Assembly: GCF_014640175.1 (NCBI RefSeq)
Contig: NZ_BMGL01000001.1
Span: forward strand, 186,001 to 250,000
Direction of reading: 5' to 3'
From: Psychroflexus salis
Lineage (GTDB): Bacteria; Bacteroidota; Bacteroidia; Flavobacteriales; Flavobacteriaceae
Length of the DNA: 64,000 nucleotides
Part shown: positions 7,001 to 60,137 of the stretch, piece by piece
Position numbering within the stretch: position 1 is the first letter of the stretch
Layout: the number at the start of each line of letters is the position of its first letter
Program-made: the position numbers and the translations under genes
Notes under the pieces: model-generated
The model's input: only the letters and a program-made list of their open reading frames with translations
Databases searched by the model: none
What the model was told of the DNA's origin: nothing

Positions 7001-7392
7001 CTCTCGGTTAACACCCTTTACTTCGACAGGCTCAACACAAATGACAATCGACATTTCCATCAAAGGAAAAGTTTAATAAAGAACGAAATAAAACTGTGTA
7101 GAGACTCTTATCAATTTGAGCATCCGAAAATTTTGAAAATTTAATTCAATGGGAATTTACATTTTTTTGATTTTTCTTTCAATTTCTTTTTTATTGCCCC
7201 AGCACTTAAGGGTGCTAAAAAGTATCAAAATTGTAGCCATTCACCCTTTAGGGTCGGAGCAAAAATGGCTCTAGATACAATCCTAATTTATTTTCTCCTA
7301 AAATAAATTAGCAGCACAGGCAACCTGACAAAACTAACATTATAACTTCTTCCCTTAAAAGAAGACTAGAGATGGGTGTTTTTATGCACTAA
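7001..7392. other. Non-coding gap between aspS and lysS
   Basis: No convincing gene. The left end (about 7018-7045) carries an 'acttcgacaggctcaac' tract resembling a dispersed intergenic repeat family of flavobacteria. Two small hairpins follow: AGCAC/GTGCT with a TTAAGG loop (about 7202-7217) and ACCCT/AGGGT with a TT loop (about 7242-7253). The two flanking genes converge here, so terminators would be expected, but neither hairpin has a clear T-tract. Confidence 0.4.
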
Positions 7393-38582: not shown

Positions 38583-39866
38583 TTAATGATTTACCGTAAT
38601 TTCATTTTTAACTGGAGGCATAGATACATCCAGAAGAAGATCCGTCATTTTACCTTTGTATGTTTTCGTTATTTCGTTACCATCTCGGGTTAAGCCTTCA
38701 AATACTTTATGATCTACCGCATCCCAAAGGGCGTATTTTGCTTTTCCTTCGACCGTAAAAAGCCCAAAAAAGTTTTCTGAACCAGTTGGATTATGTGCAT
38801 CTTTCCATGGCTCGTCGAAAGCTTCAAAATAGAAACACTTAATTTTATTTTGAGTAGCCCATTCTCTTATTTTGTGGTAATACAATGCTTGTTTATACTC
38901 ATCGGTAGCTTTTGATCCATGTTCTCCATAAAAACCACTAGATACACTTGCCCATCCAGTTTCGCCGATATGAACTGGTTTTTTAAGGCCTTGAGATTGC
39001 ATATAACTGACCACGCTATCGTATTGAGATATAGCATAACTTAAGGAACGATTCATTACTTTATCGAGTTTTTCAGTGTTACTCAGTTTTTTTTCTTTAG
39101 ATAAAATACCCCAAAATACCGGGTTATAATGGGTATCGTGCATAGGATAAGTGTGGATAGACAAGTAATCTACACTATTAATTAATTCGTTAAGTTCTGG
39201 AGTATGATATTCGGCTGCTCCACCACCCCAAGAGGCAAAGTTATCTGAACTAGTAATCCATACATCTTGGTTTATTTTTCCTTCCTTTTTTAAATTTTGA
39301 AGGTATTTAACCCACTTTAGTATAATATGTGGTTGAACAAAATATGCTGTTGCCCATTTTACCATAGCTTCATTACCAACAGCAATTATTTTAACAATAT
39401 CTGGATAAGTATTGGCCAGCTCTACAGCACGCATAATTTCAGCCTGGTTATACTCACTTTCTTCATTATGATTAAGAGGCATTTCGGTCCATGCATTTTT
39501 GCAATCTATCCAAGCACCTAACATCACGTACATTTCAAAATTAACGTCTTCTTTTTTTAATTCGTCTATTGCTTTAAGTACATTGGCTGCATGCGGCAAA
39601 CGCACATTATACGTTCTTAAAATACGAATCCCCATGGCATGCATTATTTTTAAATCGTCTTTTAATTGATTTAATGTGGGTTGGGTATTACGTGTTTTTG
39701 TACGATATCCTCCATAAGAAATAGCTAAATAATCAGGTTTATTTAGTATTTCTTTGGCACTTAAATTATGAGTGTTTTGCATGGGTTTTTGCTCTTTTTG
39801 AGATGGTTGACATGAAGCCAATACAACTAAACTAATTGTTAAAAAAATTTGAAATATTGACTTCAT
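38583..39866 (-). CDS. GH17 lipoprotein
   Basis: A 427-residue lipoprotein (signal ending VVLASCQ) of glycoside hydrolase family 17, more diverged than the two other GH17 domains of the locus. Catalytic Glu166 lies in AVGNEA and Glu302 in HIGETGWAS; the 136-residue spacing indicates insertions in the barrel compared with the 91 of its paralogues. The FYFEAFDEPWKD block near the C-terminal part of the barrel matches the FYFSSFDESWK block of the others. It probably degrades beta-1,3-glucan or oligosaccharides in the periplasm; exo or transferase activity is possible. It starts six bases after the phosphorylase. Confidence 0.88.
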   Translation of the reverse strand: MKSIFQIFLTISLVVLASCQPSQKEQKPMQNTHNLSAKEILNKPDYLAISYGGYRTKTRNTQPTLNQLKDDLKIMHAMGIRILRTYNVRLPHAANVLKAIDELKKEDVNFEMYVMLGAWIDCKNAWTEMPLNHNEESEYNQAEIMRAVELANTYPDIVKIIAVGNEAMVKWATAYFVQPHIILKWVKYLQNLKKEGKINQDVWITSSDNFASWGGGAAEYHTPELNELINSVDYLSIHTYPMHDTHYNPVFWGILSKEKKLSNTEKLDKVMNRSLSYAISQYDSVVSYMQSQGLKKPVHIGETGWASVSSGFYGEHGSKATDEYKQALYYHKIREWATQNKIKCFYFEAFDEPWKDAHNPTGSENFFGLFTVEGKAKYALWDAVDHKVFEGLTRDGNEITKTYKGKMTDLLLDVSMPPVKNEITVNH

Positions 39867-39872
39867 GGTTTC

Positions 39873-42800
39873 TTATTTTAAAAGTGAAGTATCAACTTGA
39901 ACAACTACTTGTTTTACCTTTCCTGTTCTATTAAAAATCTCTATACTTATTTTATTTGGTAAGTATTGACCATCTAAACGATTTTTAGTGGCATCGCTAA
40001 ATTCAATTTCAAGGGTATTATGGTCTCCCATTTTATAAATTATTGGAACTTGACAAAAAGTAAAACCTAAAGAATTAGATTGTATTTTTAAAGCGTGTTT
40101 TTCTTGGTTAACGTCTACAAATCTAAACACATGTTCTTCTTCTAAAAATTCAGTTTTTCTGAGTAGATGTGGCGTAAATTGGAGCTGTCCATTTTTAATG
40201 CTTACACCTAATTCTCCAAACCTGCTTAAAATATCTTCTTTAACTTGCCCAGTCATACCAGGTTGCTGCGCTCCTTTTCCTTGCGGTGTGTGCGAGTATG
40301 GATCGGTTGGAAATGCACCATACAATTTAGGAGATTTATGTACACCTATGCCTTCATTAATTTCGTAATAATGTTCTAATAATCCACCTACTATTTCTGG
40401 CAATTCGTTAGTTTTAATAGCTTGTAAACAGGTTTCTAAAACCGCTAATTGCAGTTTTGAAACCATATGCCAATAAATAGAACCTAAACCTTCGTAGCCA
40501 TAAAATGTTCCTGAACGACCAGTAAATGATTTATGATTAAAAACGTCTTCATAAATTTGAAGTACTTTTGACAATTCTTCTTCAACTAAATCTTGATGCT
40601 GATTTAAGTTTTGTAAAGCTTCTTTTAACTTTTTGGCATTGTTGAAATTTCCATTGAAATGATATTGGTTATCTACATCTTTTTCAATAATATTTTTGTT
40701 GCCTTCTTCAACTAATTTTTGAAGTAATTTTGAAGAATTTATTGCTGCTGCTGAAACATTATTTCTATTTAAGAAGCCTTTTAGTTGTTTATTAGGATAA
40801 AGTAAATAACTGTATTGATCTGGTCTAAACAATGCACTTTTCTTTAAGGCATCGAGTAAGGCCAAAGATTGTTGCGCATTTAAATAACCTGAACTTAATA
40901 CAGCTACTTGACCTTCTAGCATTTCATCCAGATAATCTATACTAACTTCATTTTTAGTAATCGTCATTAAATTGTAAGCGTGATACAGATTATCTTCACG
41001 TTTGTTCGCTTCAATAGATTGTTCTAAGTAAACTAAACTGGTGTTAATAAAATCGATTAAGTCTTTTACTGAAATTTCTGTTTTCTTACCTGAAAAACCT
41101 TTTTGGTAAACACTAGTTCTAAATAAGCTAGCAGCTTCACCTAATTCGTCTAATACTTGTTTACGTTGCTCATCATTAAAGCTAGATTGCGTTAAGGCGA
41201 AAAACTTATTGAAGGTTTTATGCATTGCAGCAAACATTCCAGCTAATTCTTCAGAAACAGCATACGCCTTATCGCTATCTAATTTTACAATTAATTTTTT
41301 GAAAAAATCTAAAAACCTTCTCAGATAGGACAATGTAACCATCGAGACACCGTTTCCTACTAAAGCATTATTAGCATCGTTCCATTCGGGGCGTTGTGTA
41401 TTCATCCAAATTCCGGCTTCTGGAATTAAATTTGATAATTTAGCCAAACTAGTTGCTAAAATTTTCTCGACGAAATTTACATGGATTGTATTTTCTTTTT
41501 GGTCGGTTAACAAAGCACCATCAGCCCCTATTTTATTACGCTTATCACGAATTTTTGCATCGTTCTCATGATCGAAATCTATAGTATCTTTAGGGTCGTT
41601 AACAATATCTTGATAAGGCTTAATTCGGTATGGAACATTGGCGTACACAAACATAGATTCACTAAAAAGTTGAACTAGTTTTCCTGGCTCATAGTCTTCA
41701 TAAAACTCTAAGAACTTGAGTAAATAAATTATTTGATGATCGCCCCAATACCCAATATATGACCAAGGATCGTCTGGCTCGATGGTTTCCCAATCAAATC
41801 CATCTTTGGTTACGCGGTATGGGTTGTAGCCGTCGAAGGTAGATGCATTTAAAAATTTAAAAATCATCCCTTCAATAAAGGCTGGATACGAATGAGCAAG
41901 GCTTTCCCAATTCTGAAAAATGTCTCGCCAATTGCCTTCATAATCTAATACTTTTGTTCCGTCGTCTGCTTTTGTATTTATAGAAAATTGGTTCCAAGGT
42001 CGACTTGGATCGCCATGTCGACGGCTAAATTTTAATGGTAAATATTCGGTTGCTAAACGTGTAAAATCTTCGTTAGCAATTTTTTCTGAAAGTGTTTGCA
42101 ATTGACTTACAGAAAATACTTCAGGTAAACTTTTTACTTCTCCTTCAACTTTTAAAGCTAGTGGCGCATTGGCTTTACTTAGGTATTGCTTAAAATCCCA
42201 GGCTTCAATTTGGTAATTGTTATCAAAAATTCCACCACGCATAATGTTAAACATGGTGTTAGAATAATGACGAATATCTCTTAAATTATCGTTTGATCGT
42301 TGCAAACCATCGGCAGCTGCATTGAGTTTAATTAATTTTTCGGTACCAAGTTTTATATCTGCTTCAATAAGCTGTTGAAGATTGCTTTTATGTAAATCTT
42401 TTTGAAGTTGAATTACTTTAGCGTGGTTATAATTTACATCGGCAACTATAAACCAAGTTTGTTCTGCTTTTGCATTTAATTGAAGCTTTTTATGAAGGAA
42501 ATAGGCTCCTTTTTCAGCTTTAACATCGGTTTCTGGGGTAATGCTTTGCCCTGTTCTAAATTTTTCTAATTGTAAAGAAGATAATAAATGAATGGGATTT
42601 TCTAAACCAAAATGCCAAACTACATTAGCTTTTAAGGCTTCGCTAGGTTCTGCTTTGTCTACTGGTACTGCACTAAGCGCAAATATTCCTAATCCTGTTT
42701 TTGGGTCAAGTTCACTGCGTTTATAAGCATCAACCAGATTACTACTTTGTGTTTGTAAATCGCTTACAACTCCAGCGGGTAAGACATTTTGTAAACCGTC

Positions 42801-43319
42801 GAGTAGTTCAACTTCAACTAAAGAAGGACTCAAATTTTCAAGTTTTGCTTCTTTTACAAAACCATATTCGTCACTTGTAGACCAACGATATGTAAATTTT
42901 AAATTTAAAGTGTGGTTTATTTCTTCAAAAAGAATTTTATCTCCATAAATATTCTTGTAAAGATTTCTAGTAATTTCGTATTGTTCTAGAAAACGGTTTG
43001 AGAATGGTTCCCAAAATTTAATTTCATTTTCTAGACGTGCTTTAATTATGGTTTTGCTTCCGGTGTAATGAGCAGATTCGGTTATTTTATCGTCGGTATA
43101 GTAAGGGAACAATGCGTATTCTGCATTTCTTCTTCCTGCGGTAAGTCCGCCATTACTTGAAATAAACATCCAGTGGTTAGAATCGCTCACAATGCTCATA
43201 AAAAACGGACGCATAACGTCGTTATTATTAATTTTAAGAAACTTTTCGCCGTTTAGTCTTACTTGTTCTAATTCACTTTCTTTTGCCATATGCTGATTGT
43301 TGGGTCGCTCTTTAATCAT
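39873..43319 (-). CDS. GH149-type beta-1,3-glucan phosphorylase
   Basis: A very large (1148-residue) cytosolic protein without signal peptide. Its layout, with an N-terminal beta-sandwich region (MSNGG-like SSNGGLTAGRRNAEYALFPY block near 55-75), a central alpha/alpha-barrel with EPDDPWSYIGYWGDHQIIYL near 510-530, and a long C-terminal tail, fits GH149, relatives of GH94 that phosphorolyse beta-1,3-oligoglucosides to glucose-1-phosphate. This matches the cytoplasmic GH17s and importer in its unit. The family call is from recalled features, not a search. An alternative start is the Met at residue 11. A terminator-like hairpin lies 39 bases upstream. Confidence 0.8.
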   Translation of the reverse strand: MIKERPNNQHMAKESELEQVRLNGEKFLKINNNDVMRPFFMSIVSDSNHWMFISSNGGLTAGRRNAEYALFPYYTDDKITESAHYTGSKTIIKARLENEIKFWEPFSNRFLEQYEITRNLYKNIYGDKILFEEINHTLNLKFTYRWSTSDEYGFVKEAKLENLSPSLVEVELLDGLQNVLPAGVVSDLQTQSSNLVDAYKRSELDPKTGLGIFALSAVPVDKAEPSEALKANVVWHFGLENPIHLLSSLQLEKFRTGQSITPETDVKAEKGAYFLHKKLQLNAKAEQTWFIVADVNYNHAKVIQLQKDLHKSNLQQLIEADIKLGTEKLIKLNAAADGLQRSNDNLRDIRHYSNTMFNIMRGGIFDNNYQIEAWDFKQYLSKANAPLALKVEGEVKSLPEVFSVSQLQTLSEKIANEDFTRLATEYLPLKFSRRHGDPSRPWNQFSINTKADDGTKVLDYEGNWRDIFQNWESLAHSYPAFIEGMIFKFLNASTFDGYNPYRVTKDGFDWETIEPDDPWSYIGYWGDHQIIYLLKFLEFYEDYEPGKLVQLFSESMFVYANVPYRIKPYQDIVNDPKDTIDFDHENDAKIRDKRNKIGADGALLTDQKENTIHVNFVEKILATSLAKLSNLIPEAGIWMNTQRPEWNDANNALVGNGVSMVTLSYLRRFLDFFKKLIVKLDSDKAYAVSEELAGMFAAMHKTFNKFFALTQSSFNDEQRKQVLDELGEAASLFRTSVYQKGFSGKKTEISVKDLIDFINTSLVYLEQSIEANKREDNLYHAYNLMTITKNEVSIDYLDEMLEGQVAVLSSGYLNAQQSLALLDALKKSALFRPDQYSYLLYPNKQLKGFLNRNNVSAAAINSSKLLQKLVEEGNKNIIEKDVDNQYHFNGNFNNAKKLKEALQNLNQHQDLVEEELSKVLQIYEDVFNHKSFTGRSGTFYGYEGLGSIYWHMVSKLQLAVLETCLQAIKTNELPEIVGGLLEHYYEINEGIGVHKSPKLYGAFPTDPYSHTPQGKGAQQPGMTGQVKEDILSRFGELGVSIKNGQLQFTPHLLRKTEFLEEEHVFRFVDVNQEKHALKIQSNSLGFTFCQVPIIYKMGDHNTLEIEFSDATKNRLDGQYLPNKISIEIFNRTGKVKQVVVQVDTSLLK

Positions 43320-43404: not shown

Positions 43405-44220
43405 TTATTTTTCGTAAATTCTTACATAATCAACTTCTAGTGTTTGTGGAAAAACTGTTTGTGGAGAAGGTGAACCAACAAAAGTACCGCCAACTGCCAT
43501 GTTGATTAACATAAAAAATGGTTTATTAAACACCCACTCTCCACTAACGTCTTCTGGGGTAATGCGGTTGTATAAAAAATCATCTACATAATAATTAATG
43601 TAATTTTCGCCCCACTCAATTCCAAAAACATGAAAATCGGTATCGAAACGATCATTTTTTAAATCGTAGGTTTTTGTAACAGCATTTCCAGCAGAATATC
43701 CTGGACCGTGCACACTTCCGTGAACGATGGTAGGATCTTGACCACGGTATTCCATAATATCTATTTCTCCTGTTTGTGGCCAACTTACTTCGTCTATATT
43801 TTCACCAAGCATCCAAAATGCTGGCCATAAACCGCGACCCCAAGGCATCTTCATGCGAGCTTCAATACGACCGTATTGTTTGTTGTATTTATCTTTTGTT
43901 AAAATTCTAGCCGAAGAATAACCAGAGCCTTCAAAAGATTCTTGTTTTGCTGTAATGATTAACTTTCCGTCTTCAACTTTTATATTTTCAGGTCTATCGG
44001 TATAGTATTGAAGCTCTTGGTTTCCCCAACCATCTACACCTGTACCAATTTCATAATCCCACACGTTCATATCTAGCGCATTGCCTTCAAATTCATCTTC
44101 AAAAACTAAGTTTTCGAATGTGGTTATCGTTTGGGTTTCGTCGGTATCGCAGCTGTTAAAGCTGAATGCTAATATGCATACACACAGTATTTTTTTTGAT
44201 AATGTGATTATCTTCTTCAT
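43405..44220 (-). CDS. GH16 laminarinase lipoprotein
   Basis: A 271-residue lipoprotein (signal ending SFNSCDT) consisting of a single GH16 beta-jelly-roll. The catalytic motif GEIDIMEYRG places the nucleophile at Glu152, the assisting Asp154 and the acid/base Glu157. The WPAFWMLGENIDEVSWP block before it and the IEWGENYINYYVDD block after it are typical of bacterial endo-beta-1,3-glucanases (laminarinase branch). It should be tethered in the outer membrane or periplasm and cut glucan internally. It is followed by a terminator that ends this unit. Confidence 0.94.
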   Translation of the reverse strand: MKKIITLSKKILCVCILAFSFNSCDTDETQTITTFENLVFEDEFEGNALDMNVWDYEIGTGVDGWGNQELQYYTDRPENIKVEDGKLIITAKQESFEGSGYSSARILTKDKYNKQYGRIEARMKMPWGRGLWPAFWMLGENIDEVSWPQTGEIDIMEYRGQDPTIVHGSVHGPGYSAGNAVTKTYDLKNDRFDTDFHVFGIEWGENYINYYVDDFLYNRITPEDVSGEWVFNKPFFMLINMAVGGTFVGSPSPQTVFPQTLEVDYVRIYEK

Positions 44221-44282: not shown

Positions 44283-45710
44283 TTATTCATCTGCGTAATA
44301 ATAAATGTTATCTACATAAATGTCAGATATTGTACCATCAGAGACAAAAAACAATAATCCTATTTGAGAAGTGTCTGTCAGACCTGGAAAACTATTTAAT
44401 GGTAAATCGAAGCTTTCCCATTGAAATGATGAAAGTTGATTTGCTAATAAAATTATTGAGCTAGAAGATTCATTGTTTCCAACGCTGTTAATTAATTGAA
44501 TTCTTAAAAAGTCTGAAGAATTCATTTGTTCGTTTACATTAATATCTAAGTGTAAATGAGTCATAGCTGTTGCGTCTATTGGAGAGACTTCATTAAAAGT
44601 ACCTATTCCAACAAAGTTAAGGTCAGTATAATTTATAATTCCATCGCCATCAACAATTATATCTGCACCACCTGGTCCTGTTCCGCCTAGAGTAGTTTGC
44701 CCATCTCCTGTAAAAAAGCCATTGTAATAAAGCACAGGCACATTTTCATAGGCATCACTAAAAACAGAAATTACATTTTCTGGATTTTGAGTAGGTGTTG
44801 GAGCTGGAGAAAAGTTTCCTAAAGATTCAACAATTAGAGAGCCTTCTGCATCATCTTCGCCTAAAGTAGCAGAAATTACAGCAGTTCCTAAGCCTATTAC
44901 TTGAACTATACCATCTTGATCTACAGTTGCAACACTTTCATCTGATGATTCAAATTCAAAATAACTTGGCGAAACAGAAGCTGTTACATCGCCTTTTGTG
45001 GTATTAAAGGTTTGCGTCAAACCAGTTACCTGCAAACTACCACCTGTAAAAGTTTGGGCTACAGTATTATTTCCATTTTGAATAGCTGGTCTAGGTTGGG
45101 CTATTGTTCCTAATTTTTCAAATTGCAACTCGTCTACCCAAAAAGTATATGCATTTCCTCCAGTTCCTTGTGAGCCAGCTGCATACCTAAACATTCCTAA
45201 CACTTGATCTAATCTAGATGAATCTGGTATTGGTATAACTATTTTTTGCCAAGCAGTGCTTAAGCTTATGTTAGTAATTGTTGTTTGAAATTCGTTTTCC
45301 ATAAAGTCTTCACCGAAACCAAATTCTCCAATGGTTACACCTTGAGATGCTTTAGCCCAAAAAGTTAATGCATCGAAGCCTGTTAAGTTGCGTGGTGATC
45401 CATCTATTCTTAAAATGGCACCCGCATAACTTCCTTCAGGGTCGTTTGCATTTGGTACATCAACTCGCATAGAAGCTTGACCTTCGTAACTTTCTTCTTG
45501 ATCTACAGACCAAGCCGTTGGTTTAGAACCATCATATGGAAAATAAAAATCGCTTCCTAAGCCAACTGGAACATCTGTAAAAATTTCGCCTACATTTGGA
45601 AATGAAGCTAATACTGCATCATCTGAAATATCTCTTTCACAACTTAACACAAAAAGCAAACTAGCTGCTAGGCACCAAGTAAAGTTAAATTTTATTTTAT
45701 TTGTTATCAT
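44283..45710 (-). CDS. Glycan-binding lipoprotein with Ig-like domain
   Basis: A 475-residue lipoprotein (signal ending VLSCERD) with no catalytic motif. It contains a jelly-roll module (about 30-195) with FDALTFWAKAS and FWVDELQFEK strands, a bacterial Ig-like (BIG2) domain (about 205-293, with SSDESVATVDQDGIVQV), and a C-terminal module (about 300-475) with NPENVISVFSDAYENV and IYVDNIYYY that is shared with two other proteins of the locus. It probably acts as a surface glycan-binding protein helping the barrel protein encoded six bases before it. Binding specificity is inferred only from context. Confidence 0.75.
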   Translation of the reverse strand: MITNKIKFNFTWCLAASLLFVLSCERDISDDAVLASFPNVGEIFTDVPVGLGSDFYFPYDGSKPTAWSVDQEESYEGQASMRVDVPNANDPEGSYAGAILRIDGSPRNLTGFDALTFWAKASQGVTIGEFGFGEDFMENEFQTTITNISLSTAWQKIVIPIPDSSRLDQVLGMFRYAAGSQGTGGNAYTFWVDELQFEKLGTIAQPRPAIQNGNNTVAQTFTGGSLQVTGLTQTFNTTKGDVTASVSPSYFEFESSDESVATVDQDGIVQVIGLGTAVISATLGEDDAEGSLIVESLGNFSPAPTPTQNPENVISVFSDAYENVPVLYYNGFFTGDGQTTLGGTGPGGADIIVDGDGIINYTDLNFVGIGTFNEVSPIDATAMTHLHLDINVNEQMNSSDFLRIQLINSVGNNESSSSIILLANQLSSFQWESFDLPLNSFPGLTDTSQIGLLFFVSDGTISDIYVDNIYYYADE

Positions 45711-45716
45711 GGTATT

Positions 45717-48700
45717 TTATTTTCCTAAGTTAAAATGAATGTATGTTCTAATTTCCCACTCCGAACCATCAGAAAAACCTATAGGATTTAATATTGGCTG
45801 AGGTGGAAAAACATTTTCGGGTGGTGTAGCTGGAGCGTATCTAGGCGAATTTTGATTTAATGATCGCCATGTACCACGAATACCAATTCTTGTATTCGGC
45901 AATACAAACCAGTCTGGTTTTCCGACAGTAGTTGAGACATCTAACATCAATTGCAAGGGGAAGGTTAAGTTAAAATCTCTGTGGTAATCGAAAGGACCCC
46001 AGTCGTTAACTTTTACATGAGTTTGTACTTTTATCTTTTTATAAATCATCCTGATATCTCCACCGTAACGAGTAATTAATCTTGCGTCGTCACCATTGGC
46101 TTGCCCATTACCGTAGTACAAGTTAGCGATAAAACCTAAGTCTGGGCTTAATTTAGAAACAATTCTAGTGTTTGCTTCCCATAAATCTTCGGCTGGTGCA
46201 GAAGTTGGAAAAGCGAAGAAAGTACGATCGGCTAAGAAACCAATGTGTCCATCCATAGTAGTTGGTAAGTGTCTATATACAAATCCTGCGCTCATTGCAA
46301 AAGCAGCATCTTCAGATCGGTCGTTATCCCATTCGTACATCCAAGTTCCTGGAGTTGGATCGTAGGTTAGTAACAACTCTCCAGCTGTTGTTTCTCTATT
46401 GCCATCTCTAACTGCAAAAGGATCGTCTATAAAATTACGTAATCTGCCAGGTGCATCAATACCGTTTGGCATTGCTTCAACCAAAGGTTTGCGCCACATA
46501 AAATTTGGAGCAATTTGCCAGTTACCAACACTATAAGTAAAGCCCGTTAAAAAATTAGATTGGTTACCACTGCCCGAATCTTTCAATTTCCAGCCTGTAA
46601 AGGTTTGTGTCATATCTGCACTTCCGTTAGCAACTAATCCCATAACAGCACCTTGTGCATACCAATTAAATTTTCCGCCTTCGTATATTAATTTGGCTTT
46701 CCCTCCCCAGTTGTCTTTGGATTTAATTTTATCTTCAAAAACAGTATAGTTTCCTTCTGTTCCTGTAAAGTCTTGATAGGAGCTTCCATTTAGTGGACTA
46801 CCAGCCCAAAGACCTCCTAAAGTTATTTCAAATTTACCAAATGTACGTTCGATCGCAACCGACATTTTTTCGCTAGGCCAAGGTGGAATAATACCACTTC
46901 GAACTTGATTTTGATCTAATACACGGCGACCATTTTCATCGAAACGTAAATCGGTTTGTATATCTCTATTGTAAACTCCTGTAACATTCCATTTACCAAT
47001 TTGAGTTCTATATTTTAAGAGAGTTGTTGGGTTTGCTCCCCACCAAAGTTGCGGACCAAAAGCAGCTTTTAAACCTTCAGCTACTCCTTTACCATCAACT
47101 TCAAAACCAAGAATTTCACCTCCATAAATATCTAAATTCGGACCATAATTAGCTTCTGGGTATAGGCCAAAAATATCACCTTCGTATTGCCAGTGATAAT
47201 GATTGGTTCTGTAAAAACCCCGCAAATCGAAGTGTTTAGCATTCCATTCATATTCTGCCTGGTATACATTTAGACGATTAATATCGTTTAAGATTGTTTC
47301 TCCTTCTGGAGTATCGACAATTAGGTTTCTAGACCGGTTTTCATAAAAGATTTCGTCAATTGGATTTTCAGCAACATTGCCTATAATATTGAACTGAACT
47401 TCTGCTCGCATGTTTGGGGCAGGTTTAGCTTCAACGCCTACAAAGTAAGATTCCATATGGTCGAATCCTAATTGATTTGGAAAAGCATTGCTATCTGGAT
47501 TAGGTGTGTCTGGTGTAGTAATTAAATGTCCGTCTGTGTAAAAAGTAGAAAATTGAGCAGATAACCTACTAATGCTAAGTTTTTCTGAATCTCCACCACC
47601 TAAAGCTGCTTTGTCGCCTCGTGCTTTTAATACGGCTCCCATTATTTCGATTTTTTCGAAATGTATTTCTAAATCTGATAAATCTTTTTCGCCTGCATAA
47701 GGATTAAAATCGTGCGCTTCTTTTAAAGCATAATAGGCAGCTCTTGGGTATAAATCGTATAATCCACTTGCATTAGTTGGTCCTTTAGCACATACTCCAA
47801 ACCATTCTTCGTTCATATTATTTTCTCCTTCAGCAAAGTCTCTGTCGTATCCACCGTTAGACCAAGATGCGTTTGAGTCATGCACATCTAAATTAGAAGT
47901 TTGGCCATATTTCCACCAACCATCGCTAAATTGAAAGGTGAAGCCACCAATAGAGTTTTCAGCTAAGCCTAAACCTGCGGCATTTTGGTAAATATCTTTC
48001 CAATTATTTAGCATGTAATAAGCTTGCGATTTTTGGTCTTCTTGATTATCTCTAGCGTTAAATGCATCTGCACCAAATTCTGTAAACAAAATTGGCTTTC
48101 CATAAACATCTTTCACTTTTTGAAATGCATCTCCAAAGCTTTCTCCACGATACATATTCGTTCCGTAAATATCTACATCTGGACATTCTTCAGCTACAAT
48201 TTCTAAAAACAACAGGTCTCCGTTACAAATCGCAACAGGAGCTGAATTATCGATAGCCTTCATTTTCTTAGATGCTTCATTCATTAATTGGTACATAGGG
48301 CGAGCTCTATTTTCGCCAACTGCATTAATTTGGTCTTCTTCATCTGGAAAATCTTCAGTTTCAGCACCTGCCCAAAACAAACCATAGTTGTTTTCGTTAC
48401 CTAATAAATATAAAAGTAAACCTGGGGTTCCTTTATAAGTATTGGCTAGATCGGTTATTTCTGACATTAGCAATTGTTTGGTGGCAGGATCGTCATACTT
48501 TGTTACTGGCGTCCAAACGCCATCTATTGTAAGGCCATATCTTCCAAAAGAATGGTTTAACATCGTATAAATTCCATAATTCTCGTATATGTATTTAATC
48601 CATTTAGGTTGTATACCTGTATATACTCGAATTGTATTTACACCCATATTTTTGAGTAATCCCATTTCAGAATCTAAAGCAGATTTTATAATGTTATCTG

Positions 48701-48896
48701 GTTGATTCCACAGACTGTAATTGTAGTTTGTACCAATAGGAAAATAATCCCAATTCATCCCATTTACCATTAAGTCTTTCCCATCAACTTGTAGTTTTAG
48801 ACCTTGGTCGTTAGACACAACTTTAACATTATGACCTTGCGAAAAACTTAAGGATACAAAAAGAAATAATGCACTAGCAAAAATAATTTTTTTCAT
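45717..48896 (-). CDS. GH clan-A hydrolase domain fused to an outer-membrane beta-barrel
   Basis: A 1059-residue exported protein with an unusual two-part build. After a signal peptide (1-19) comes a TIM-barrel glycoside hydrolase domain (about 20-395) resembling GH2/GH5-type clan-A enzymes, with LLGNENNYG (Glu168) and LFTEFGADA (Glu273) as the likely acid/base and nucleophile. Residues about 400-1059 are long amphipathic, aromatic-rich beta-strands with Gly/Asp/Asn turns, ending in TYIHFNLGK, like an outer-membrane barrel. No SusC plug is present. It may be a hydrolase tethered to its own porin. A -7 box TAAGTTTG (48925-48932) lies upstream. The exact GH family is not recognised. Confidence 0.75.
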   Translation of the reverse strand: MKKIIFASALFLFVSLSFSQGHNVKVVSNDQGLKLQVDGKDLMVNGMNWDYFPIGTNYNYSLWNQPDNIIKSALDSEMGLLKNMGVNTIRVYTGIQPKWIKYIYENYGIYTMLNHSFGRYGLTIDGVWTPVTKYDDPATKQLLMSEITDLANTYKGTPGLLLYLLGNENNYGLFWAGAETEDFPDEEDQINAVGENRARPMYQLMNEASKKMKAIDNSAPVAICNGDLLFLEIVAEECPDVDIYGTNMYRGESFGDAFQKVKDVYGKPILFTEFGADAFNARDNQEDQKSQAYYMLNNWKDIYQNAAGLGLAENSIGGFTFQFSDGWWKYGQTSNLDVHDSNASWSNGGYDRDFAEGENNMNEEWFGVCAKGPTNASGLYDLYPRAAYYALKEAHDFNPYAGEKDLSDLEIHFEKIEIMGAVLKARGDKAALGGGDSEKLSISRLSAQFSTFYTDGHLITTPDTPNPDSNAFPNQLGFDHMESYFVGVEAKPAPNMRAEVQFNIIGNVAENPIDEIFYENRSRNLIVDTPEGETILNDINRLNVYQAEYEWNAKHFDLRGFYRTNHYHWQYEGDIFGLYPEANYGPNLDIYGGEILGFEVDGKGVAEGLKAAFGPQLWWGANPTTLLKYRTQIGKWNVTGVYNRDIQTDLRFDENGRRVLDQNQVRSGIIPPWPSEKMSVAIERTFGKFEITLGGLWAGSPLNGSSYQDFTGTEGNYTVFEDKIKSKDNWGGKAKLIYEGGKFNWYAQGAVMGLVANGSADMTQTFTGWKLKDSGSGNQSNFLTGFTYSVGNWQIAPNFMWRKPLVEAMPNGIDAPGRLRNFIDDPFAVRDGNRETTAGELLLTYDPTPGTWMYEWDNDRSEDAAFAMSAGFVYRHLPTTMDGHIGFLADRTFFAFPTSAPAEDLWEANTRIVSKLSPDLGFIANLYYGNGQANGDDARLITRYGGDIRMIYKKIKVQTHVKVNDWGPFDYHRDFNLTFPLQLMLDVSTTVGKPDWFVLPNTRIGIRGTWRSLNQNSPRYAPATPPENVFPPQPILNPIGFSDGSEWEIRTYIHFNLGK

Positions 48897-49263
48897 TTGT
48901 TTGAATTTAATAATTCATTATACTCAAACTTAAAGCTTTTAGTTAAGATTTTATTTAGAAAATGCTAAACAAAATATATACATTTAATGAATTAATGCAG
49001 TTTATGAATTATTTAAAGCTCTTAAGGCCAATAAACACGATAGAATATGAAGTATATTAAACAAGAAAGTCTTTTAATTCTTTAAGTGTTAAAAAAGAAT
49101 AATGTAGTGATTATGTATAGCTAATTTAATTAAGTGTATTGTTTTTTAGATTTTTAAATCAATAATGAAATAGTTTTAAAGGAGATTTAAAGACAAAATT
49201 CGCAAACGTTATCGTAGTTTCTATTGATTTAAATTAAAAATAAAATTTAAATGTTAATCTGTT
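48897..49263 (-). promoter_or_regulatory. Promoter region of the barrel-fusion unit
   Basis: A 367-base AT-rich gap without a gene. On the minus strand a TAAGTTTG -7 box lies at 48925-48932, 28 bases before the barrel-fusion start. Near the far end, 49204-49220 reads AAACGTTATCGTAGTTT, resembling a segment upstream of susC. No strong terminator for the GH3 gene is seen, so readthrough from the susC unit is possible. Confidence 0.5.
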
Positions 49264-51552
49264 TTATTGAAGATTTAGTTCTGCTTGAAGAGATGTATCT
49301 GAACTTGTTCCGATAAAAAAATTGAATTTTCCTTTTTCAAAAATCCAATCTCCATTGGGTAAATAATACCCCAAATCTTTTTCACTCAATAGAAAATTTA
49401 TCAATTTCTTTTGATTTGGATTTAGTGAGACTTGTCTAAAAGACTTTAGTTCTTTAATTGGACGTGATATTTGAGCCACAGGATCTTGAATATATAATTG
49501 AACTGTTTCCGTGCCAAATAAAGATCCGGTATTAGTTAATTCTACACTAATACTAACTTTAAATTCATTACTTTCTGAAAAAGAATTCACACTAAAATTG
49601 CTTAGTTTAAATTGCGTGTATGAAAGTCCATAACCAAATGGGTAAAGCGGAGTGTTTTGTTGGTCTATATAAAAAGATTTAAATACATCTTGCTGTGAAG
49701 GATCGTTGGGTCTTCCTGTTGGTAAGTGGTTATAATAAAGTGGCAGCTGACCTACACTTCTAGGGAATGACATAGGCAGTTTCCCACTAGGATTATAATC
49801 GCCATAAAGAACTTGAGCAATGGCGGAACCATTAAAAGAGCCTAGTTGCCAAGCTTCAACAATTGCAGGAATGTGTTGCTCTGCCCATGTTAAAGTAAGT
49901 GGACGACCATTTTGAAGCACCAAGACTATATTTGGATTTACTTCATAAACGGCTTCTAAAAGTTCTTGTTGTAATCCGGGCAAACCAAGCTTGGTTCGAC
50001 TTCTACCTTCACCACTCTGAAAACCATGTTCGCCAAGGTTCATAATTACAATGTCTGCTTGTTTTGCAATTTTAATAGCTTCTTCGAATCCTGATTTATC
50101 TGTAGTATTAACATTGAGTTCTTTCACAAAATGAACATCTCCTTTAATAAATTTAGGACCTTGCGCGTAACGAATTGAATTGGTTGCCGGGTAGTTTTGC
50201 ATTGCTTCGACTAGGGACTCTGCTTTTCCATCGTCTGATGCTATTCTCCAACTACCTAAAGCTGAAGTTTTGTCTTGTGCTAAATCGCCTATTATAGCTA
50301 TTTGTTGATGATCTTTTTTTAAAGGTAAAAGTTGATTATTATTTTTCAGTAAAACAATAGACTGCCTGGCTATATTTAGAATATCTTTTTTAAATTTTTG
50401 GCTATATACGGTTTCCTTTTCACGTTTTTTGGATAAATACTTGTAAGGATCGTCAAAAAGACCAAGCTCAAACTTAAGGGTTAAAATTCTACGAACAGCA
50501 TCGTTAATTAATTGTAAGTCAACTTCTCCATCATTTACCAAACTAGCAAGCTCTTCAATAAAATGGTAAGACTCCATATCCATGTCACATCCAGCAATAA
50601 TAGCCTTTTTGGCAGCGTCCCGACCATCTTGGGCAAAACCATGGTTTTTTAATTCACCTACCGAATCCCAATCTGATACAACAAAGCCATTAAAATTCCA
50701 TTTCTTTTTAAGCACATCTCTGATTAGAAATTGGTCTGCTGTTGCTGGGATACCATTAAGCACATTAAAAGAATTCATAACTGCCTTAACATCAGCATCT
50801 ACTGCAGCTTTAAAAGGTGGAAATATAGTATTGTACAAAGTAGTTGTACCCACATCTACTGTATTATATTCTCTACCGGCTTCAGCAAATCCGTATGCAG
50901 CAAAATGTTTTGCTGTGGCGGCGATTGTATGGGGTAAACCTAAGTCTTTACCTTGAAATCCTTCAACTCTAGCTTTTGCTATTAAACTACCTAAGTAAGG
51001 ATCTTCGCCAGCACCTTCCATTACTCTGCCCCATCGAGCATCGCGTGAAATATCTACCATTGGAGCAAAAGTTAGATTTATACCTGCTGCAGAAGCTTCT
51101 TCAGCAGCAATTTCAGCGGAGCGTTTAATTAAGGATAAATTCCAACTGGCAGCTTCAGCTAAAGGAATAGGGCTTATTGTTTTATAGCCATGCACGATAT
51201 CGAAAGCAAAAATAAGTGGAATACCTAAACGTGAATTTTCAACAGCTATTTTTTGAACTGCTTTTACATTTTCAACTCCATGAACATTAAGCATTGAGCC
51301 CACAAGACCCTTTTCAATATCTTTATATTTTTTAGCCTGCTGACCACCTTTGGGTTGTGGACCTGTAAAATCCATAAAACCACTATACTGGTTCATTTGT
51401 CCAATTTTTTCTTCCAAAGTCATTTTGGCTAAAAGTGCTTCAACTTTTTCAGAAATCATGGTATTAGAATTATTTAAAACAAAATCTTGGTTGGATGAAT
51501 TACAAGCAAAACATCCAACCAAGATTAAACTATAGATCAATACTTTCTTCAA
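49264..51552 (-). CDS. GH3 beta-glucosidase
   Basis: A 762-residue exported glycoside hydrolase of family 3 that removes terminal beta-glucose. The N-terminal signal ends LVGCFACNSS, probably lipidated. A TIM-barrel domain (about 40-370) carries the nucleophile Asp294 in VVSDWDSVGE, followed by the alpha/beta sandwich domain (about 400-620) and a C-terminal fibronectin-III-like domain (about 660-750), the usual three-domain BglX layout. It should split laminari-oligosaccharides to glucose in the periplasm. It is eight bases downstream of the GH16 gene and ends the susC unit. Confidence 0.93.
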   Translation of the reverse strand: MKKVLIYSLILVGCFACNSSNQDFVLNNSNTMISEKVEALLAKMTLEEKIGQMNQYSGFMDFTGPQPKGGQQAKKYKDIEKGLVGSMLNVHGVENVKAVQKIAVENSRLGIPLIFAFDIVHGYKTISPIPLAEAASWNLSLIKRSAEIAAEEASAAGINLTFAPMVDISRDARWGRVMEGAGEDPYLGSLIAKARVEGFQGKDLGLPHTIAATAKHFAAYGFAEAGREYNTVDVGTTTLYNTIFPPFKAAVDADVKAVMNSFNVLNGIPATADQFLIRDVLKKKWNFNGFVVSDWDSVGELKNHGFAQDGRDAAKKAIIAGCDMDMESYHFIEELASLVNDGEVDLQLINDAVRRILTLKFELGLFDDPYKYLSKKREKETVYSQKFKKDILNIARQSIVLLKNNNQLLPLKKDHQQIAIIGDLAQDKTSALGSWRIASDDGKAESLVEAMQNYPATNSIRYAQGPKFIKGDVHFVKELNVNTTDKSGFEEAIKIAKQADIVIMNLGEHGFQSGEGRSRTKLGLPGLQQELLEAVYEVNPNIVLVLQNGRPLTLTWAEQHIPAIVEAWQLGSFNGSAIAQVLYGDYNPSGKLPMSFPRSVGQLPLYYNHLPTGRPNDPSQQDVFKSFYIDQQNTPLYPFGYGLSYTQFKLSNFSVNSFSESNEFKVSISVELTNTGSLFGTETVQLYIQDPVAQISRPIKELKSFRQVSLNPNQKKLINFLLSEKDLGYYLPNGDWIFEKGKFNFFIGTSSDTSLQAELNLQ

Positions 51553-51560
51553 AAAAACAA

Positions 51561-53255
51561 TTATTGATAAACTCTTACGTAGTCAATTTCCATTGTATCT
51601 TCTGTAAAATTAGGGTCTACATCACCACCTAAGCTTCCTCCCATCGCGATATTTAGGATTAGGAAAAAATCGCTTTCAAAAGGTAAGTCTGGAGAATTAG
51701 CAACCGTATGATACACATTGTCGTCTACAAGAAATTCAATGGTATCTGGGGTCCATTCTACAGTATAATTATGAAATTCTGTTGTAGAAGTGGTTAAAAC
51801 GGTGCTAGCAGAATCTCCAGCTCCTGGAGAAACACCTGGATGATGAACAGTTGCTAAAACTGTATTTTTATCCTGTCCTTTTTGTTCCATTATATCTATT
51901 TCTCCACAAGCAGGCCAAGTATTGGTTTGATAATCAGCTCCTAGCATCCATATTGCTGGCCAAGTTCCAATAGAAGAAGGTAATTTTGCTCTGACCTCAA
52001 CTCTTCCATAGGTAAATTCAAATAAGCCTTCAGATTTTAAACGGGCAGAAGTATAACCGCTCCCATCTGCTAAAGCTGTAATTTTTAAGAGTCCATCTTC
52101 TACAATAACGTTTTCTGAGTTATCTGTATAGGATTGGAGCTCTTGGTTACCCCAACCATCTGAACCAGTTCCTAAATCGTAGGTCCAATTACTTGAATTA
52201 GGTGCACCATCTTCATCAAATTCATCTTCCCAAATTAAATCATTGTAAATTGAAGTAAAGTCGTTTGAAGGTGGAGTAGTTGTAAATTTTTGATACCAAG
52301 CTAAGACAGGGTTTTCATTATCAAAAAACCTTACGTACAAATAGCTATCTGTAATTTCTAGAATTTCATAGGATGAAACACCCGTATAATAACCCATGAA
52401 TGCATTATTAGAATAATTCAAAACCGTACCTCTTGGTTCGGGGAACTCAGGATCTGCAACTTGTGACCAATCTGTAGATGAAGGAGCTACAGAAACAATA
52501 CTCTGTCCTGATGTATCAAATTCAAAACATGTATCTGCAAATTGTTCAAAATCCTGTCCTACAGCTCCACCGCTGGCCCAGTTAAAAAATGTTTCTCCAT
52601 TATTTTCATGAGTAAAAGATAATTCACCATCTGGAGACATTGTAAATGTTAAAAAGAAATTACAAAAACAATCGGAATCTGAACTTGCACATTTTCCAAA
52701 AGCATTAGTTGAATCATATTGAGGGTACCAATGACCGTTTATATTACTATCGTCTGCAAGGTCTTGTGTTAAAGTTGGTCCTACTCCTAAATGACCATTT
52801 TCGTCTAATTTAGGATACCAAACTTTTGAGCTGCCAGTACCTCCACTTAAAAACTCTTTTGCTTCCACATCATCGAAGGAGCTAAAAACTTCTACATCTA
52901 TTGTTGTAGTTGTGGTTAGGCCTCCAGTTCCTGTTGCAGTTATAACAGCTGTATAGGTATTTAAGCCTGGTAAACTATATCGGTTTGTTACTATACCAGA
53001 AGGAACAACTTCGCTAGTTCCGTCTCCAAATTGAAAATTGTAACTTATAGCATTATCTGCTGTAGCGGTAAACTCAACAAATCCACTTCCATCGCCATTA
53101 GGGTTTTCTGCATCAACTCCAAAAATTTCTGCATTAATCTCAAGATTAGAAGGAGCAATAAGATTTCCCAAGTTAGCATCATCATCTTGACACCCTACAA
53201 AAAGCGTAAGTGTAAGAATTATACTTGTTAATTTTATTATATTTTTCATATTCAA
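51561..53255 (-). CDS. Multidomain GH16 laminarinase lipoprotein
   Basis: A 564-residue lipoprotein (signal ending FVGCQDD). It has a PKD-like domain (about 40-128), a middle module (about 133-325) beginning KVWYPKLDENGHLGVGPT with several cysteines, and a C-terminal GH16 domain (about 330-564). The catalytic motif GEIDIMEQKGQ places Glu452, Asp454 and Glu457. It is probably the main surface endo-beta-1,3-glucanase that starts laminarin breakdown. The middle module resembles the duplicated domain of the binding protein encoded just upstream, five bases away, suggesting shared glucan binding. Confidence 0.92.
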   Translation of the reverse strand: MNMKNIIKLTSIILTLTLFVGCQDDDANLGNLIAPSNLEINAEIFGVDAENPNGDGSGFVEFTATADNAISYNFQFGDGTSEVVPSGIVTNRYSLPGLNTYTAVITATGTGGLTTTTTIDVEVFSSFDDVEAKEFLSGGTGSSKVWYPKLDENGHLGVGPTLTQDLADDSNINGHWYPQYDSTNAFGKCASSDSDCFCNFFLTFTMSPDGELSFTHENNGETFFNWASGGAVGQDFEQFADTCFEFDTSGQSIVSVAPSSTDWSQVADPEFPEPRGTVLNYSNNAFMGYYTGVSSYEILEITDSYLYVRFFDNENPVLAWYQKFTTTPPSNDFTSIYNDLIWEDEFDEDGAPNSSNWTYDLGTGSDGWGNQELQSYTDNSENVIVEDGLLKITALADGSGYTSARLKSEGLFEFTYGRVEVRAKLPSSIGTWPAIWMLGADYQTNTWPACGEIDIMEQKGQDKNTVLATVHHPGVSPGAGDSASTVLTTSTTEFHNYTVEWTPDTIEFLVDDNVYHTVANSPDLPFESDFFLILNIAMGGSLGGDVDPNFTEDTMEIDYVRVYQ

Positions 53256-53260
53256 TTTTT

Positions 53261-55348
53261 CTAAAGTTTAATTAGTTTGAATTGCCAGAAGATACCACCT
53301 CCAATATCGATGCTCACATTAATAGTATTAGCATCTTGAAAGGTTACATTGTATGTTATTGAGTCTGGAACAGGTACATTTGGTAACTCACCTTGATTAT
53401 TTGCCTTAGCCAAACCAATATATGCGCCAGCACCGTTAAGCGTTAGCGTGCCTGCTGCTTCATCGTAGACATAAGTTGCTGGGCTAGAACCGTCGTGAGG
53501 CGCAACAGGAGTGCCACAGGCATCTCCACCGCCTTGCCAGCCTTCGATCCAAGACTGGTCTCCTAAAACATTTGTAAATGAACCGTCTGCTCCAAAAACA
53601 TAATTATCATCGAAATAACAATCTCTTAAATCAACACAAGCTGCATCGCAAGAAAAGAAACTAATATCACCCATAGAAGGACCAACTCCTAAAGAACCGG
53701 CTTCTGGAGCCATTTGCCACACACCAGTTAATGGAGTAGCCGGTGGTAATTCTCTTACTAATTTAAATTGCCAAAATATCCCCCCTCCTATGTCTATATT
53801 TACATCTATTTCATTAGGGCCAGTAAAAGTTACGTTATAAGTAATTGAATCTGGAACAGGAACATTAGGTAATTCTCCTTGGTTATTAGCTTTTGCTAGA
53901 CCAATATATGCTCCGACACCGTTAAGGGTTACCGTACCCGCTGCTTCATCGTAGACATAAGTTGCTGGGTTAGAACCGTCGTGAGGCGCCACAGGAGTGC
54001 CGCATGCATCGCCACCACCTTGCCAACCTTCAATCCAAGATTCGGCGCCTAAATCATTTGTGAATGAGCCGTCTGCTCCAAAAATATAACTATCATCAAA
54101 ATAGCAAGCTCTTAAATCAACACAACCCACATCGCAAGAAAAGAAGCTAATATCACCAACTGAAGGACCTACACCAAGTGAACCAGCTTGTGGTGCCATT
54201 TTCCAAGTCCCTTGTAAACCTTCTGGAACATTGCTAGGCGCTTTATAAAAATATACATTATCTATAAAGAAATCGAAAGTCCCTACTGGTAAACCAGAGA
54301 ATATTAATTGTTGAATTGAACTAATCGATGTCATCCCTGCGTCTGTGAAATTTGACATTGGGATATCTATTGAAACCCATTCGTTTTGTGGTATATCTTC
54401 AATTACAATTTCTGCTTCTGTAGGTGTGCCTCCTAAATCTACTAATTTAATTCTAAAAGTAGTAGCGTTTAAGCTCCAGAAATCTAAATGAAATGCATCC
54501 ATGCCTGAAGCATCTACAGCATCTTCATCATAAAATTCAACTCCTACAAAATCTGCATCTGCATAAAACTTCGTATCGTTTCCATTAATTTGGATGTCTG
54601 TAAGAACGCTTGTACTCCATTCGGAACGCCAAGAACTTACATTAACGTCTAATTCGTATGCGTTGCTGTACATTGAAATTACATCTGAATCTTGTCTATT
54701 AGGTGGGTTTGGTGCTGCAACTAAGGGTTGTAAAATTTCAGTAACTTCGAACTCTTCCGTGTAAGAAACGGTTTCTATAGCGGCACTAAAAGCGGTTACT
54801 GTAATGGTGTACGTTCCAGCTTCATCATATTGATATGAAACTGTATCGTCAATATTAGCAGTTAAAGGCTCAAGGTCTGGCACTCCAAAATCAACTTCAT
54901 AAGATAAAGCGAAATCTGCCGAAGCAGTAACATTAACTTGTCTTGAAATAGAAGAGTCGTTTTCAATAAACACCTCTAAATTTTCTGGAGCTTGAAATGA
55001 AACGTCGATAGTTTGAATCGATGTTGTAGATAAACCATTAAGACCATTGGCTGTAATAGATAATTCGTAGCTGCCTTCTTCGTAAATATGGTCGACGCTA
55101 GAACCTGGCTCAATTAAATCTGATACTTCAGATCCATCACCAAAATCGAGAACATAGTTAATAGCTCCTTCTGCTAATGGAATAATAGTTACTAAGCCTG
55201 TGTTATCTTGTGTAACGCTTACTTTAGCAGAAACATTTATAGGTGGCTCTGTGTTATTTAGAAAATCTTTATAATCGTCTTCATCTTTACAACCGAAAAG
55301 AGACAAAACAACAATAAAGATGCTTAAAATATATTTTACTTTTTTCAT
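53261..55348 (-). CDS. Surface glycan-binding lipoprotein with duplicated C-terminal domains
   Basis: A 695-residue lipoprotein (signal ending LFGCKDE) with no catalytic motif. In order: two PKD-like domains (about 35-115 and 118-200), a module (about 205-375) with PPNRQDSDVISMYSNAYE and FFIDNVYFYK that recurs in two other locus proteins, then two tandem domains of about 154 residues (about 381-534 and 542-695), roughly 85 percent identical, each with GSLGVGP, four cysteines and WQFKL at the end. Its place directly after susD is where surface glycan-binding proteins are encoded, so it likely holds laminarin for SusCD. Confidence 0.85.
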   Translation of the reverse strand: MKKVKYILSIFIVVLSLFGCKDEDDYKDFLNNTEPPINVSAKVSVTQDNTGLVTIIPLAEGAINYVLDFGDGSEVSDLIEPGSSVDHIYEEGSYELSITANGLNGLSTTSIQTIDVSFQAPENLEVFIENDSSISRQVNVTASADFALSYEVDFGVPDLEPLTANIDDTVSYQYDEAGTYTITVTAFSAAIETVSYTEEFEVTEILQPLVAAPNPPNRQDSDVISMYSNAYELDVNVSSWRSEWSTSVLTDIQINGNDTKFYADADFVGVEFYDEDAVDASGMDAFHLDFWSLNATTFRIKLVDLGGTPTEAEIVIEDIPQNEWVSIDIPMSNFTDAGMTSISSIQQLIFSGLPVGTFDFFIDNVYFYKAPSNVPEGLQGTWKMAPQAGSLGVGPSVGDISFFSCDVGCVDLRACYFDDSYIFGADGSFTNDLGAESWIEGWQGGGDACGTPVAPHDGSNPATYVYDEAAGTVTLNGVGAYIGLAKANNQGELPNVPVPDSITYNVTFTGPNEIDVNIDIGGGIFWQFKLVRELPPATPLTGVWQMAPEAGSLGVGPSMGDISFFSCDAACVDLRDCYFDDNYVFGADGSFTNVLGDQSWIEGWQGGGDACGTPVAPHDGSSPATYVYDEAAGTLTLNGAGAYIGLAKANNQGELPNVPVPDSITYNVTFQDANTINVSIDIGGGIFWQFKLIKL
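53264..54208 (-). repeat. Tandem domain duplication inside the glycan-binding protein gene
   Basis: Two copies of about 462 bases (54208-53747 and 53725-53264) encode domains with about 85 percent identical residues, separated by a seven-codon linker. The copies differ by many synonymous and some amino-acid changes, so the duplication is not recent. Confidence 0.9.
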
Positions 55349-55366
55349 AATTCAAATTTTTATCTT

Positions 55367-56845: not shown

Positions 56846-56863
56846 TGTGCTAAAAATTTAAAA

Positions 56864-59902: not shown

Positions 59903-60137
59903 GACTAAAAGATTTTGAAATAAAAATAGCTTAACAATATTATAAATTGGTTAACATTGTATTTACAAAAAAACTACAACGCTATAGTAAATTTAAAACA
60001 TTTTTAATTATTTATCTATATTTCTGATTTTCTTATAATTAAATATGGTAATTAAATAATAATTAAATTTAAAAAAACATTTAAAGACCTTAAGATAGAG
60101 GTTAAATGTAGTGTTATTTTTAACAAATGTATTGTTT

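Follow-up and report, generated by a model that had tools for sequence, protein, structure and literature searches.

Current accounts of how marine Bacteroidota take up laminarin rest on TonB-driven SusC/SusD (SusCD) systems, and SusC/D expression serves to predict the sugars that blooms feed on (PMC6298971). Clusters carrying glycoside hydrolase (GH) family GH149 without a susCD-like pair have also been noted (PMC5827456). In laminarin loci of Formosa, a transporter of the major facilitator superfamily (MFS) is fused to a GH17 enzyme, FbGH17B, and its authors state that, to their knowledge, such a fusion was undescribed for other bacteria (Unfried et al. 2018, PMC6246565). Here we describe a gene of Psychroflexus salis that joins a glycosidase domain and a plug-less outer-membrane beta-barrel in one frame. 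It lies in a 64,000-nucleotide stretch (the window; contig NZ_BMGL01000001.1, 186,001-250,000 of the forward strand), and all positions below are window positions unless a locus is named. Structure models and gene context lead us to regard the protein as probably a channel of the outer membrane, coupled to an enzyme, that serves a module for the uptake of laminarin (beta-1,3-glucan) and replaces or supplements SusCD. The gene and its parts are listed here.

45717-48896, minus strand: fusion gene, enzyme plus outer-membrane barrel, 1059 amino acids, single ATG-started frame.
48840-48896, minus strand: signal peptide of roughly residues 1-19, without a lipobox as read by eye.
47616-48839, minus strand: TIM-barrel glycosidase domain, residues 20-427 (PF02836, (beta/alpha)8 pattern, Foldseek).
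48393-48395, minus strand: E168 codon, putative acid/base, in LGNEN (invariance and weak alignments).
48078-48080, minus strand: E273 codon, putative nucleophile, in TEFG (invariance and weak alignments).
45720-47576, minus strand: plug-less outer-membrane beta-barrel, residues 441-1059, with 24-26 predicted strands (AlphaFold2 models, fold search).
47115-47207, minus strand: conserved long loop after strand 5, aromatic and acidic, residues 564-594 (48% near-invariant in 43 phylum proteins).
46566-46637, minus strand: residues 754-777, a conserved long loop that follows strand 15 (50% near-invariant, 43 proteins).
45957-46007, minus strand: residues 964-980, a conserved long loop that follows strand 23 (71% near-invariant, 43 proteins).

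We confirm that this is a real, single-frame protein made of an enzyme and a plug-less barrel. A preliminary description of this DNA had reported an uninterrupted frame of 1059 codons, which holds with its ATG start, and had seen in it an enzyme followed by a barrel-like part without a SusC plug, on which the sequence, two models and a fold search now agree. A search of the P. salis genome with the fusion protein returned a single match. The lipobox pattern occurs in just 2 of 80 homologous open reading frames (ORFs), and both resemble ordinary signal peptides. The full-length AlphaFold2 model reaches a predicted TM-score (pTM) of 0.48 and a predicted local distance difference test score (pLDDT) of about 71, values at which domain packing and strand number are unsure.

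Residues 441-1056 form 26 antiparallel strands in two AlphaFold2 models, or 24 with the polar hairpin 706-723 counted as a loop outside the barrel; the barrel-only model has a pTM of 0.73. The strand connections alternate between 13 long ones (mean 21.5 residues) and 12 short ones (mean 4.6; p 1e-4), and the difference in hydrophobicity between the two strand faces exceeds that of all 2000 shuffles, with the strand limits in both tests taken from the model, so that the tests are not fully independent of it. A fold search of the PDB gave 304 matches at E <= 0.001, and the best 50, which were listed, are all outer-membrane barrels; they include Bacteroides BtuB, siderophore receptors, OprD/Occ porins, MOMP, Mtr, LptD and FimD, the identities of some of these chains being our presumption. 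Among the listed hits, the highest query-normalised TM-score is 0.42, to 6r2q_B of an Mtr complex, a chain that we take to be MtrB. The prediction thus combines a signal peptide, an even number of amphipathic strands, alternating long and short connections, and the fold of an outer-membrane barrel. Soluble beta-sandwich modules, which the preliminary description had named as the finding that would speak against a barrel, are not seen in the models or among the listed fold matches. The 24-26 predicted strands exceed the 14-18 that it had proposed to look for.

Sequence families say little about this barrel, which matches none in Pfam or NCBIfam. The plug (PF07715), CarbopepD_reg and TIGR04056 (SusC) find no match in the fusion, and the real SusC of the locus matches all three; we ruled out a SusC-like or other known receptor identity for lack of model matches. 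A PDB profile search with the barrel returned seven antibody light chains at E >= 0.22, which are noise, and a viral fold library gave 9 hits at E <= 0.001, including phage-encoded SusC and porins but nothing new.

In 43 proteins from across the phylum, the long loops have a higher share of near-invariant residues (87 of 279) than the strands do (59 of 282; Fisher p 0.007), above all in loops 564-594, 616-622, 754-777 and 964-980. Such loop conservation is to be expected of a selective channel more than of a mere anchor. The short-turn side of such barrels is, as a general rule, periplasmic. Because the predicted strand number is even and both termini fall on the short-turn side, the enzyme domain most likely sits at the periplasmic side of the outer membrane. 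The preliminary description had left a choice between a periplasmic and a surface mouth, and the modelled topology favours the former.

The enzyme domain had been proposed as a TIM barrel with two plausible catalytic glutamates, Glu168 and Glu273, and this proposal gains from the new data. Scanned alone, the domain matches PF02836 (GH2_C, a TIM-barrel model) with 23.4 bits against a cut-off of 21, and 15 of 16 family members match that model at E <= 0.01; a scan of the entire fusion protein does not list PF02836 and gives just weaker clan-A models, all below their cut-offs. Residues 20-427 show a (beta/alpha)8 pattern in the AlphaFold2 model. The best PDB matches found by Foldseek are GH158 laminarinases, one of which was soaked with laminaritetraose; GH2 glucuronidases come next, and their E-values are similar. 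Neither E168 nor E273 varies in alignments of 16 and of 73 proteins. In weak alignments, E273 falls on the TEFG glutamate of 9oro (GH158(Pro)) and of 9fz9 (GH2-type), and E168 on the GNE of GH158(Pro) and of a beta-galactosidase; the roles we give them presume those of the two GH158 glutamates. The profile match to 9oro (E 6e-4) is no better than that to a beta-galactosidase. PF02837 and PF00703, which we take to be the N-terminal sandwich domains of classical GH2, find no match in scans of the fusion protein. We dropped a GH5_46 identity, since the GH5_46 enzyme is described with CBM6.

The fusion is conserved well beyond P. salis. Among 299 genomes of the family, 94 contain a match, and in 56, the window's own included, it runs in a single frame over at least 94% of the protein, those of other genomes being about 64-75% identical to the window's. 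Most of the remaining matches are remote homologues of the enzyme part alone, with identities close to 30%, and a few are copies that are broken, split or truncated. A barrel profile run over 395 phylum genomes matches 35, of which 33 have frames of 1028-1084 amino acids, that of G492 being truncated where its contig ends; the other two, G411 and G522, carry broken genes. The fusion recurs outside the class as well as in the family. No stand-alone barrel was seen in the 395 phylum genomes, at most three candidates per genome being scored. The nearest relative among the named loci returned is that of Psychroflexus planctonicus, 93% identical over the barrel. In 780 pairs formed from 40 fused proteins, identity in the enzyme domain correlates with identity in the barrel (Spearman 0.66). 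Our alignment A4 holds 72 of the 80 named loci, a motif filter having dropped L055, L059, L060, L088, L091, L097, L111 and L115. Distant enzyme-domain homologues in other family members (L049 5440-6636, 399 amino acids; L050 7072-8811, 580 amino acids) end in what appears by eye to be a type IX secretion tail.

The gene order around the fusion is conserved too. In the window, its neighbours are as follows.

44283-45710, minus strand: lipoprotein with a Big_2 domain, CERDISDDA from the lipobox Cys, which acidic residues thus follow, 6 bp downstream of the fusion.
43405-44220, minus strand: GH16 lipoprotein (domain match and N-terminus).
39873-43319, minus strand: GH149 beta-1,3-oligoglucan phosphorylase (PDB 6hq6, E=0).
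38583-39866, minus strand: GH17 lipoprotein (weak PF00332 match, 26 bits against a cut-off of 28.2; N-terminus).
37053-38558, minus strand: GH30 lipoprotein (domain match and N-terminus).
34546-37041, minus strand: MFS transporter fused to GH17, inner-membrane (domain match).
48897-49263, no strand: 367-bp gap upstream of the fusion, which probably marks a separate transcription unit.
49264-62966, minus strand: upstream SusCD part, with a Y_Y_Y/LuxR-type regulator, SusC, SusD, a PKD protein, PKD-GH16 and GH3.

A further GH17 follows the MFS-GH17 fusion. With GH16, GH17, GH30, GH149 and MFS(-GH17), the window holds the set of a laminarin utilisation locus; in a like-ordered Formosa cluster, likened by family and not by alignment, enzymes of the same families act on laminarin (PMC6246565). 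The fusion gene heads this conserved beta-1,3-glucan module of lipoprotein, GH16, mostly GH149, GH17, GH30 and MFS. A homologue of the Big_2 lipoprotein is the next assigned gene after the fusion in 79 of 80 loci, the remaining locus stopping at that point, and 60 of these 79 homologues show the lipobox pattern. GH16 lies on the fusion's strand in 77 of 80 loci; GH149 was found in 66, GH17 in 62 and GH30 in 44, the last counts being limited by locus length. In 13 loci no GH149 is visible, and 7 of them have GH3 downstream. Because the gap before the fusion measures 367 bp against 5-18 bp from SusC to GH3 upstream (starts called mechanically), the fusion gene may begin its own transcript. The 367-bp gap contains no inverted repeat of at least 10, and no match to a Bacteroidetes-type promoter consensus (one mismatch allowed), a scan that was uninformative at 31 matches against 25 expected. 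Just beyond the locus lies a met-zincin (DUF4953/DUF5117) protein (27912-30407).

We asked how often SusC and SusD accompany the fusion in the 71 of 80 named loci that have at least 7 kb upstream (7-8.7 kb searched). In 45 of the 71, the fusion has a Y_Y_Y/LuxR-type regulator beside it, and the upstream search on that strand found no SusC/SusD. SusC/SusD is present upstream in 21; in 3, a SusCD module comes first, a second regulator next and the fusion last; 2 have neither. Downstream on the fusion's strand, SusC/SusD was found in none of the 71. The preliminary description had proposed a second entry route beside SusCD: the two do co-occur in the window, and the comparison takes the idea further, since no SusC/SusD was found upstream in the 45 loci. 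Three loci (L058, L091, L101) carry a SusD-containing glucan module, then a second regulator and the fusion module, probably under separate regulation.

Ten genomes were viewed more widely (about 19 to 58 kb), hand-chosen and five of them picked because they lack PF07980; no SusC/SusD appeared in their fusion clusters. A sixth such genome, G492, offers a contig of just 3.9 kb. G434 has the fusion at the end of its cluster and not at the start; G028 has a weak SusC-like receptor on the opposite strand, some 15 kb away. SusD (PF07980) has no match in 6 of 73 fusion-bearing genomes, a search that left out 11 family matches (G124, G072, G207, G148, G037, G235, G140, G195, G189, G223, G062) and 3 phylum matches (G590, G411, G522). 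Four genomes (G347, G361, G434, G542) match neither PF07980 nor PF14322, the two models on which SusD absence rests. PF14322 and TIGR04056 were run on ten genomes only; among these, G361 and G542 have no SusC above the TIGR04056 cut-off and keep many weaker TonB-receptor-like matches. The genomes in this comparison are rated 99-100% complete. A TonB receptor domain is absent from ten ORFs of or near the distant clusters, where many further unassigned ORFs were not scanned. The SusCD-free cluster of G347 (L164) also holds a ROK-family regulator and a periplasmic sugar-binding protein (6036-7310 and 9725-10765).

Seven close relatives lack the barrel: G258, G176, G398, G415, G529 and G411, with the enzyme alone, and G199. 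In a tree of the N-terminal domain with 49 trimmed rows, which does not include L047-L050 (distant homologues) or L168 (a partial row), unfused enzymes fall among fused ones, and well-supported branches force at least five changes between the fused and unfused states. For G411, we read the change as barrel loss, because a decayed remnant of the barrel's first strands follows the stop codon of the enzyme-only gene (L184, about 3461-3680); in the other relatives the direction of change is presumed. SusC/SusD occurs in or near the clusters of five of the six assessable unfused enzymes (G398, G258, G176, G199 and G415, in G415 about 12 kb away on the opposite strand); G411, on an 11-kb contig, is not among the six. 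An association of unfused enzymes with SusC/SusD is suggestive only. In G199 (L187 9382-11457; the same gene in L032) the same enzyme domain is fused to a GH16 domain instead of a barrel.

Several observations weigh against a selective channel that takes the place of SusCD. Two of the long loops, 646-675 and 1013-1044, vary, the shares of near-invariant residues in the two being 7% and 9%, and most indels of the barrel fall in long loops. Nearby SusC and SusD were sought with the window's own SusC and SusD only, so diverged ones could escape. The 24 of 71 loci that do contain SusC/SusD have the fusion as one route among others, and SusCD-poor genomes retain other TonB-dependent receptors that could import glucan. 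Just 20 of the 46 inner branches of the N-domain tree are well supported. G529 is unfused, yet has no SusC/SusD from the contig start to 40 kb. The link of unfused enzymes with SusC/SusD, compared with the 24 of 71 fused loci, gives p 0.026 with unequal search distances and 0.18 with equal ones, over rows that are related. Finally, a lipobox is visible by eye in 3 of the 7 unfused enzymes, so that the important feature may be tethering.

The last point leads to the view that the barrel is a membrane anchor only, holding a periplasmic beta-glucanase near SusC or other importing receptors. If those lipoproteins mean that tethering is selected, a barrel could serve the same end, and importers are at hand where SusC/SusD stands upstream (24 of 71 loci) or where other TonB-dependent receptors persist in SusCD-poor genomes. 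A barrel of 615 residues would, however, be costly for that role; near-invariant residues are denser in its long loops than in its strands, and 45 of 71 loci have no SusC/SusD found upstream. We consider an anchor rather unlikely. Surface display, with the enzyme passed through the barrel like an autotransporter passenger to act outside the cell, seems to us improbable. The order of N-terminal passenger and C-terminal barrel is that of an autotransporter, and an endo-glucanase at the surface would be useful in a laminarin locus; but the C-terminal translocator domain of type Va autotransporters has 12 strands, against the 24-26 predicted here, and no autotransporter model or fold appears among the Pfam and listed PDB hits. 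We take acidic residues after the lipoprotein Cys as a signal for surface export, and many GH16 lipoproteins already bear them.

We give very little credence to the idea that the barrel exports or secretes a polysaccharide which the hydrolase trims. Some exopolysaccharide systems do pair outer-membrane barrels with hydrolases, but the neighbours here are degradative and import genes (GH16, GH17, GH30, GH149, MFS), and among 17 scanned locus proteins there is no glycosyltransferase or synthase except for a match to SKN1/KRE6, a glucan-synthesis-associated model, which overlaps GH16 domains. That the fusion is accidental or non-functional, an assembly artefact or a recent chimaera, is the explanation we find hardest to credit: a few broken or unfused versions exist (G411, G522, G061), but 56 of 299 family genomes, and others outside the class, have kept it with identities of about 64-75%, and this, together with the correlated identities of the two domains, refutes a chance or artefact origin.

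For the enzyme-coupled channel that we favour, we envisage the following mechanism. Surface GH16 and the surface lipoprotein encoded by the next gene would capture and shorten the glucan. Oligosaccharides would then pass the plug-less barrel of 24-26 strands, with the conserved long loops selecting the substrate, and the TIM-barrel domain, tethered at the periplasmic mouth, would cleave fragments on arrival. Cleavage at the mouth would maintain a downhill gradient, and the tethered enzyme may narrow a wide pore. Degradation would be completed by GH17 and GH30 in the periplasm, by the MFS(-GH17) transporter and by GH149 in the cytoplasm. The fusion would stand in for SusC/SusD in many related loci and supplement it in the window. 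Architecture, conservation, gene order and the failure to find SusC/SusD nearby in those loci are observations; transport, the side of the enzyme, the timing of cutting, and substrate and linkage specificity follow from them by inference. Tentatively, we extend the proposal to a phylum-wide, SusCD-independent laminarin import of Bacteroidota, in which channel and hydrolase form one protein with its own surface lipoprotein and regulation, and in which cutting, not TonB energy, might drive uptake.

If the fusion is a true cutting channel, it would offer a simple, testable answer to how uptake is coupled with hydrolysis at the outer membrane. Loci with the fusion module but no SusCD would escape callers of polysaccharide utilisation loci that require a SusCD pair, and the barrel itself is invisible to Pfam and NCBIfam. 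In the literature searched, with subscription papers mostly outside it and supplements unread, we found no account of a large glycosidase-bearing outer-membrane barrel in a glucan locus. Upstream of GH16 and GH149 in Muricauda loci, a 2026 paper names a 'GH2 beta-glycosidase', its accessible text mentioning no barrel (PMC13188888); because of this position, we infer that it is apparently the fusion gene.

Compared part by part, the protein resembles several known systems. Its enzyme domain is closest in fold to GH158 (BuGH158 6pal and GH158(Pro) 9oro), with both glutamates aligning weakly with those of 9oro; identity in the fold alignment is 12-15%, and the 6pal and 9oro chains carry no barrel. 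With GH2 enzymes of the 9fz9 type it shares PF02836 but not the GH2 sandwich domains. Its barrel is like those of the Mtr complex (6r2q_B) and OprD/Occ porins in fold, at an identity of only 7-10%, and to our knowledge none of these carries a glycosidase domain. SusC and other TonB-dependent receptor barrels have 22 strands. As with SusC/SusD, a lipoprotein gene comes after that of a large outer-membrane barrel, which in a polysaccharide locus often adjoins a regulator; the fusion differs in having a hydrolase instead of the plug, CarbopepD_reg and TIGR04056, and its partner lipoprotein carries Big_2 with no SusD match. The window's own MFS-GH17 fusion, about 9 kb downstream, is a second transporter-enzyme fusion of the locus, in the other membrane and of the known FbGH17B type. 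FbGH17B and the barrel fusion, which come from loci of one type, each unite a transporter, predicted in our case, with a beta-1,3-glucan hydrolase in a single polypeptide. FbGH17B is an inner-membrane helical transporter with a C-terminal enzyme, whereas the fusion described here has an outer-membrane barrel and its enzyme at the N-terminus.

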